A DNA stretch of 32,093 bases, taken from contig JAITMQ010000033.1 in the NCBI GenBank assembly GCA_031277225.1, forward strand, positions 1 to 32,093, written 5' to 3'. Origin of the DNA: Clostridiales bacterium (GTDB taxonomy: Bacteria; Bacillota; Clostridia; Lachnospirales; WRAX01). The position numbers and the translations under genes were made by a program. The notes beneath the pieces were generated by a model. That model did no database searches and was not told where the DNA came from. It worked only from the letters and a program-made list of their open reading frames with translations. Positions 14,669 through 16,574 of this stretch are shown one piece after another (within the stretch, counting starts at the first letter, position 1; each line of letters opens with the position of its first letter).

Positions 14669-15070
14669 TTAGATACGACGCCGTTTTGGCGGTCTGCAAC
14701 CATTATGCGGCACGGGGGTTACATCTTTAATCATTGTAACCTCAAGCCCCGCCGCCGACAATGCTCTTATAGCGGCCTCGCGCCCGCTTCCCGGCCCTTT
14801 AACATAAACCTCAACACTTCTGAGGCCAAATTCCTTGGCGGCCGACGCCGCCGAATCCGACGCCATTTGCGCCGCATAAGGCGTGGACTTGCGAGAGCCG
14901 CGAAAACCAAGACCGCCCGCAGATGCCCAACACAAAGCATTGCCATTCATGTCGGTTATGGTTACAATCGTATTGTTAAAGGTAGCTTGTATATGCACCT
15001 GACCAAAAGGAACCACCTTTTTCTCACGACGCCGCCGGGTGGTGCCCCGTCTGACTACTCTTTTTGACAA
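14669..15070 (-). CDS. rpsK: 30S ribosomal protein S11, UUG start
   Basis: [46 protein letters not shown]. Confidence 0.97.
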
Positions 15071-15086
15071 ATTTCACTCCTCCTCT

Positions 15087-15761
15087 TTACAAATATTTAC
15101 TCACAACTTCATTTATTCTGCTTCTTAAAAACGCACAGTCTTCACAGCCACCTGCTTCCAGCTTAGTCATCTCATTAAACAGAAGCTGTAAATCTCTTAG
15201 CATCTGCTCTTTTTTGAAGCTTCTGGCCTCGCAGTCTAATATACTAAGGATGCTTTCAGAAACAAGCATCATCGCCTCTTTGCTGATGTCATATTCGCTG
15301 AATCCTCTGATGAATGTGTCTTTACCATGCTCTTTTAAAACATTTCTGATTACATGCCGCCTTATCTCGTAAGATTCATTTCCGAGTACTTCAAGTAAGT
15401 TGTCAGCAAAAAGTATGAAATAGGCGAAATGAATATTAGCATCGTAATCTTTTAGCGGCGTGGGCAGTTTAATCGGCCTATATCGTAAAATCCAATAAGC
15501 TTTCGTTGCTGCCTGCCGCGTTTGCTTGAGATTAGTGCCGTGAAAAAACAAATAGTAGTTCTGGCGTTGATGAAGCCTTTTATGGATTTCATCTACCATA
15601 TCCCAGTCTACATGCTTGTTAATAATATCTTCGGCACTATACACCTTATTTCCTATCCAATTCACAAACCATTTTAGATGGTTTGTGAATTTTTCTCTGT
15701 GCTTGTTTAGGCTATCTCGGGTTGCTGGTAAATACCTGGCAGCAGTAAGGTTTCCATTCAT
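15087..15761 (-). CDS. Hypothetical helical protein, 224 aa, inserted between rpsM and rpsK
   Basis: Complete ORF; SD GGGAGGAT formed by the end of the upstream 62-aa gene; no family recognised. Confidence 0.8.
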   Translation of the reverse strand: MNGNLTAARYLPATRDSLNKHREKFTNHLKWFVNWIGNKVYSAEDIINKHVDWDMVDEIHKRLHQRQNYYLFFHGTNLKQTRQAATKAYWILRYRPIKLPTPLKDYDANIHFAYFILFADNLLEVLGNESYEIRRHVIRNVLKEHGKDTFIRGFSEYDISKEAMMLVSESILSILDCEARSFKKEQMLRDLQLLFNEMTKLEAGGCEDCAFLRSRINEVVSKYL

Positions 15762-15763
15762 GT

Positions 15764-15952
15764 CTACAAATAATCCTCCCCACCGGTATGCTCAAGAAGT
15801 ATTTTGATGCCGGCATCAATTCGGTCATCAAGATCCAGAATAGCGCCGCCGGCATAGGATAAGTCGTTGATATATGCCTTGCGCTTATCCCTTTCCAGGT
15901 TTTCCTGATATTCTTCTTCGGTCAAAAGGGGCACTCGAAATTCATTAGCCAT
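15764..15952 (-). CDS. Hypothetical small acidic protein, 62 aa
   Basis: MANEFRVPLLTEEEYQENLERDKRKAYINDLSYAGGAILDLDDRIDAGIKILLEHTGGEDYL; SD GGAGAG before ATG. Confidence 0.75.
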   Translation of the reverse strand: MANEFRVPLLTEEEYQENLERDKRKAYINDLSYAGGAILDLDDRIDAGIKILLEHTGGEDYL

Positions 15953-15975
15953 AAATTTCTCTCCTTCCCTTAGCT

Positions 15976-16344
15976 CTACTTCTTCTTATTAGCAACAGTG
16001 CGCCTTGGGCCTTTTCTTGTGCGGGCGTTGGTTTTTGTGCGTTGTCCGCGCACGGGCAGGCCGCGCCTGTGCCTTATTCCTCTATAACAGCCAATTTCTG
16101 TAAGCCTTTTGATATTAAGGGCAATTTCCCTGCGCAAATCACCTTCAACCACCTGATTTTTGTCAATGGCTTCACGAATTCGCGCAACTTCGTCGTCCGT
16201 TAAATCTCTTATTCTTGTATTGGGATTAACAGCCGCAATTTGCAAAAGCTTGTTAGAGCTGGAGCGTCCAATACCATAAATATAAGTAAGCCCAATCTCA
16301 ACCCGCTTTTCACGCGGCAAATCCACACCGGCAATACGCGCCAT
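15976..16344 (-). CDS. rpsM: 30S ribosomal protein S13
   Basis: [34 protein letters not shown]; start at 16344, not the listed 16422. Confidence 0.97.
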
Positions 16345-16366
16345 AGTATACCTCCTTTGTCGGTAT

Positions 16367-16453
16367 AATGAATAATTAATAATTAATAATGAATAATTGA
16401 TAGTTGCGTAACACTCTTTCATTATTCATTATTCCGTATTCATTATTAATTGA
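16367..16453. repeat. Heptamer-based inverted repeat between rpmJ and rpsM
   Basis: AATGAATAATTAATAATTAATAATGAATAATTGATAG, then TTTCATTATTCATTATTCCGTATTCATTATTAATTG. Confidence 0.85.
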
Positions 16454-16460
16454 CAAGGCT

Positions 16461-16574
16461 TTAGCCTTGTCTTTGCTTGTGCTTGGGATTTTCGCAAATA
16501 ACCCGCACAGCACCCTTGCGTCTTATTACTTTACATTTTTCACACATGGGTTTAACCGATGGTCTTACCTTCAT
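16461..16574 (-). CDS. rpmJ: 50S ribosomal protein L36
   Basis: Manual translation [37 protein letters not shown]; absent from the ORF track. Confidence 0.97.

Follow-up and report, generated by a model that had tools for sequence, protein, structure and literature searches.

A probable toxin–antitoxin-like gene pair, related to phage genes, between rpsM and rpsK of a Clostridiales genome

A small acidic protein followed by a larger basic one is the usual layout of type II toxin–antitoxin (TA) modules. Two further described systems bear on the locus considered here. The Panacea antitoxin domain (DUF4065, PF13274) has many toxins as partners, toxSAS and a nucleotide cyclase among them (PMC8832971; PMC10440598), and the toxSAS enzymes are under the control of small dedicated partners (PMC11782079). 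The window that we analysed, 32,093 nucleotides in length, is the complete contig C177 of a draft Clostridiales genome (2.16 Mb in 177 contigs). Between the genes for ribosomal proteins S13 and S11 it carries a gene pair that resembles type II TA modules in having an acidic small protein (pI 4.3), a basic larger protein (pI 8.8), coupled genes, a patchy distribution and phage-borne relatives, but differs from them in that neither protein falls into a described family.

The four genes of interest lie on the minus strand. The rpsM gene (15976–16344; Pfam PF00416, E=3e-33) is followed by the small gene (15764–15952, 62 aa), which is recognised as an ORF with relatives in two phage contigs, then by the large gene (15087–15761, 224 aa), for which there are homologues and a structural model in addition to the ORF, and finally by rpsK (14669–15070). 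The rpsK ORF was identified by tblastn, with 70–92% identity to the S11 proteins of related genomes, where the gene adjoins that for S13. The original prediction of two ORFs, the first of them acidic, on the operon strand between rpsM and rpsK is thus borne out. The spacer from the rpsM stop to the rpsK start is 905 nt, as against 0–276 nt in 45/45 related genomes, 14 of them of the same family, and since the insertion is absent from all of these junctions the module is a private one. Because S13 is encoded only once in the genome, the locus does not represent a duplicate operon. At 0.39, against 0.487 for the window as a whole, the GC content of the large gene is below that of every other large ORF in the window. 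The module is tolerated within an essential ribosomal-protein operon.

The position between S13 and S11 could indicate an accessory pair for the ribosome or translation that is native to the operon, and two relatives keep similar company, one directly upstream of rpsL-rpsG-fusA (L028) and the other after the atp operon (L015). However, the pair is fixed at this junction in 0/45 relatives, its homologues occur in phages and beside unrelated genes, and there is no ribosomal fold match. A ribosomal function is rejected on these grounds, and the native accessory pair is a very improbable reading. Fixation of the module across the order together with a ribosome-related fold, named beforehand as the outcome contrary to the original prediction, was looked for and not found.

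Two inverted repeats were seen in this part of the window. One is a perfect 14-nt repeat within the large gene (15659–15691), followed by a T-rich stretch on the plus strand, which is terminator-like in the antisense direction. The other is a set of AT-rich inverted repeats of ATAATGAATAATTAATAAT-like units at 16361–16451, between rpmJ (16464–16574) and rpsM.

The arrangement of ribosome binding sites is as foreseen. The small gene has its own Shine–Dalgarno sequence, GGAGAG at 15959–15964, within the leader GGAGAGAAATTT (15953–15964, minus strand), and that for the large gene, GGGGAGG, is provided by the coding end of the small gene, 13 nt before the large-gene ATG. The leader of the small gene is a near-copy of the Shine–Dalgarno leader of rpsK, GGAGTGAAATTT (15069–15080, minus strand), the two being identical at 11/12 positions (shuffle P=0.02, with 11 loci tested). 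The string GGAGNGAAATTT, a pattern chosen post hoc, occurs twice in the window, once at each module border, where 0.01 occurrences are expected. Duplication of a leader was considered as a general mechanism of insertion. It is unproven, because nothing similar brackets the module at ten other loci, leaving the window copy alone, and because both copies of the near-repeat are ribosome binding sites.

The small ORF is a consistent feature of the family. In 20/21 module loci an ORF of this kind lies upstream, at a distance of −26 to +19 nt from the large-gene start, and at the remaining locus it lies 58 nt away; the small ORFs are about 57–105 aa in length. By comparison, 31/229 (13.5%) of the remaining genes with a length of 150 aa or more have such a small ORF, a baseline that was taken from the same module loci and is not an independent sample. 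The overlapping or abutting bicistron is a characteristic of type II TA modules, and the proposed translational coupling holds. Since relatives keep both frames and the small ORF is coupled at 20/21 loci, both ORFs are truly coding. A draft assembly of 177 contigs might be expected to contain artefacts, but a misassembly or non-coding insertion is hardly credible for a locus in which two uninterrupted frames have homologues among coupled pairs elsewhere, the ribosome binding sites are intact and there is a single S13 match. Two related loci have a third small ORF, acidic in appearance, downstream of the large gene (L017:1187–1420 and L027:1278–1523, both on the minus strand).

No described family was recognised for either protein in the original prediction, and this holds. 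Searches of Pfam, NCBIfam, PHROGs and PADLOC gave nothing above chance, PDB searches by sequence gave no family match, and the plasmid and isolate-phage collections were also without a match. Weak matches to Iron_traffic, Par3_HAL, AMEP412 and HNH were at chance level, and matches of the family profile in the PDB, to de novo designed helical proteins and NrdR, were likewise judged to be chance. The AlphaFold2 model of the window protein, with 20 family members in the input, is confident and all-helical (pLDDT 90.6, pTM 0.82). Foldseek finds no match to this model at E<=0.001 in the PDB or BFVD, and a model of a naturally fused relative (L021), with a confident core and a mean pLDDT of 85.5, has no PDB fold match. 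The predicted fold is therefore new relative to the PDB and viral models only, and the large protein apparently represents an undescribed all-helical family. The conserved all-alpha core spans approximately residues 1–180. A CEDC motif near the C-terminus, noted previously, is indeed present, but it is not a family motif since it sits in an extension (approximately residues 181–224) that is absent from all relatives. No catalytic signature was recognised in the large protein. The HEPN RNase motif, R-x4-6-H, was considered and dismissed: clade A (defined below) has R-x7-H and clade B has R-x4-H, with the histidine lost in L108 and L113, and the sole match to a HEPN fold, 3o10, is at chance level (E=2.5, TM<0.2).

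Scans of genome and viral contigs located relatives in two phage contigs, a Clostridiales MAG and a Chitinispirillia MAG, and iterated profile searches added further relatives in the same order and class. The distribution is patchy and mobile, as is typical of type II TA modules. The module family is present in 14/295 genomes sampled from the order, in 8/38 and 11/250 genomes of families f5 and f6, respectively, and in 2/300 genomes sampled from the phylum, the window's own genome included, and it is absent from 15/15 genomes of the same family. The window's genome has a second, distant copy on contig C106 (approximately 38260–39063, minus strand; L013), in which a large gene (1402–1977, 191 aa) has a small ORF upstream (1981–2205, 74 aa) and lies near a CTP synthase-like gene; this copy belongs to clade B.

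In a maximum-likelihood tree of 30 large proteins, a clade A of 12 (support 100/99) stands apart from the other 18, termed clade B. The two clades are homologous (hhalign 98.3%, E=2.5e-14). Within clade A the window protein groups with both phage proteins (support 100/100); finer placements are unsure because several branches are long. Clade A loci consist of small and large pairs, with the further downstream ORF in L017 and L027. Their neighbours are varied; in addition to the rpsL and atp settings, one pair lies after ppdK (L014) and another after yebC (L004), and no gene for an integrase or transposase was noticed next to these chromosomal pairs.

The phage pairs (L006, IMGVR_UViG_3300006226_000043; L007, IMGVR_UViG_3300028327_000803) are like that of the window in that the large protein is 41–42% identical and a small acidic ORF lies directly upstream, and the small proteins are recognisably alike. 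They differ in being located beside packaging genes, on the opposite strand, and in lacking the C-terminal extension that carries CEDC. The terminases of the two phages are unrelated (PHROGs 2/3717 versus 9) and the pair is opposite to the packaging strand in both, which argues for two separate acquisitions of the pair by phages. Relative to the window genome, phage would presumably be the donor rather than the recipient.

The pair is probably a TA-like or phage-conflict module. In the form that we tentatively prefer, to which we give somewhat less than an even chance, it is a horizontally acquired, translationally coupled, phage-related TA-like pair with the small protein as putative neutraliser. 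A pair from a lineage also carried by phages would have been acquired horizontally and inserted between rpsM and rpsK, where it is presumed to be co-transcribed with both. The two proteins would probably form a complex in which one restrains the other. Of the two, the 224-aa protein, basic and all-helical, could inhibit growth or respond to phage, and the small acidic protein, made first, could be its labile neutraliser; we favour this polarity only modestly. We infer co-transcription, complex formation, toxicity, a trigger and a role in defence, with phage conflict as the likely setting.

The conserved bicistron, the grouping with phage proteins, the patchiness, the acidic–basic order and the partners of clade B support a TA-like reading. 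The phage homologues, the patchy occurrence, the bicistron and the clade B operons thus lend indirect support, though not proof, to the earlier guess at a TA module or small defence module; there is no match to a known TA or defence family. Several observations count against the TA-like reading. No TA or defence model matches, the pair corresponding to none of the toxin or antitoxin families in Pfam, NCBIfam, PHROGs or PADLOC, and none of 20 members matching Panacea; the charge pattern is reversed in L107, the sole clade B example measured; and hhalign detected no homology between the clade A and clade B small proteins, despite a likeness by eye in an N-x-P stretch and the helix that follows it. 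No defence genes were recognised beside the window pair.

The clade B loci have a different organisation. Nine of the 18 clade B large genes lie downstream of a gene of approximately 300 aa with a RelA/SpoT domain (L019, L020, L021, L106–L109, L111 and L112). A small gene lies between the synthetase and the large gene in L019, L020, L106–L109 and L111; in L021 the small and large genes are fused, and at L112 no small gene was found. In L110 a RelA/SpoT-domain gene appears to be broken into two ORFs. Three of the synthetases were scanned and all were above the Pfam cut-off (PF04607, up to 3.2e-13), whilst the aligned residues in all nine keep the motifs R, K, D, G-R, Y-R-H, E-Q-T and H. The clade B operons thus have, like toxSAS operons, a synthetase domain with conserved catalytic residues. 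The clade B synthetases resemble RelP/RelQ-type chains in the PDB (best 6fgj, 2.3e-13), and at E<=0.001 they match GTP pyrophosphokinase chains only. With a compact RelA/SpoT synthetase and small partner genes, these operons are comparable to the toxSAS systems FaRel2, PhRel2 and CapRel. In contrast, the window module is without a synthetase, and none lies beside it.

Other clade B genes have other partners. In L009 and L010 a small ORF and a large-family gene are accompanied by a 150-aa 2TM protein with weak similarity to SLATT/2TM effectors, and in L012 and L022 the large-family gene occurs with two membrane-protein genes. In L026 (268–1800) the large-family domain is fused to the C-terminus of a cyclase-like protein, and a membrane-protein gene follows (1882–2694). 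By eye, the N-terminal part of the fusion resembles class III nucleotide cyclases, a reading for which no supporting Pfam, PADLOC or PDB match was obtained.

The association of clade B with multiple effectors suggests a regulatory or antitoxin role for the large protein, not that of a toxin, which counts against the favoured polarity. The large protein may be an antitoxin or sensor domain that is reused with many effectors in the manner of Panacea, a reading that we consider somewhat unlikely. The window pair would then lack an effector and would neutralise or sense toxins encoded in trans, or its small partner would itself be the toxin. Such reuse would fit the recurrence of the clade B large protein beside RelA/SpoT synthetases, 2TM proteins and the cyclase-like fusion, and the joining of small and large genes in one synthetase operon (L021), and there is the precedent of Panacea, a single antitoxin domain serving toxSAS, a cyclase and others (PMC8832971, PMC10440598). 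Panacea is, like the large family, helical, and its partners are many and unrelated, RelA/SpoT synthetases and a nucleotide cyclase among them. However, the two do not match in sequence, PF13274 being unmatched in 20/20 family members, no fold match was found, and most of the clade B synthetase operons, unlike Panacea, hold an extra small gene between effector and large gene. Furthermore, clade A consists purely of two-gene pairs across long distances and so works without a linked effector, and the only alarmone synthetases in the genome of the window are a long Rel and a 220-aa SAS, both on contigs other than that of the module.

More broadly, it is possible, if on the doubtful side, that the large protein founds a new all-alpha family of regulators with interchangeable effectors, a second Panacea-like hub, in bacteria and phages. 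RelA/SpoT synthetases, 2TM proteins and cyclase-like enzymes would be its effectors, and the stand-alone phage pairs would act on, or derive from, the full operons.

The phage relatives also allow a further role. The pair could be a domesticated phage counter-defence module that silences alarmone-synthetase or membrane-effector systems, the chromosomal copy shielding the cell likewise. Its nearest relatives are on two phage contigs and clade B homologues lie inside the operons that would be its targets. Nevertheless, pattern scans of 2.9 million viral contigs, a collection that may include prophages, gave just two clear phage copies; we regard this reading as improbable. The locus points to a conserved gene family without an entry in the libraries searched, which phages carry and which is tied, in three-gene operons, to alarmone synthetases. 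Should the clade B operons prove to be TA or abortive defence systems, they would provide a new means of controlling alarmone synthetases.

One further locus contains a large-family gene near a different type of neighbour. In L085 (4122–5050, minus strand), a 207-aa protein with the motif FHGCD...LGNGIYFWE, encoded after a 100-aa ORF, resembles by eye proteins of the ADP-ribosyltransferase type.
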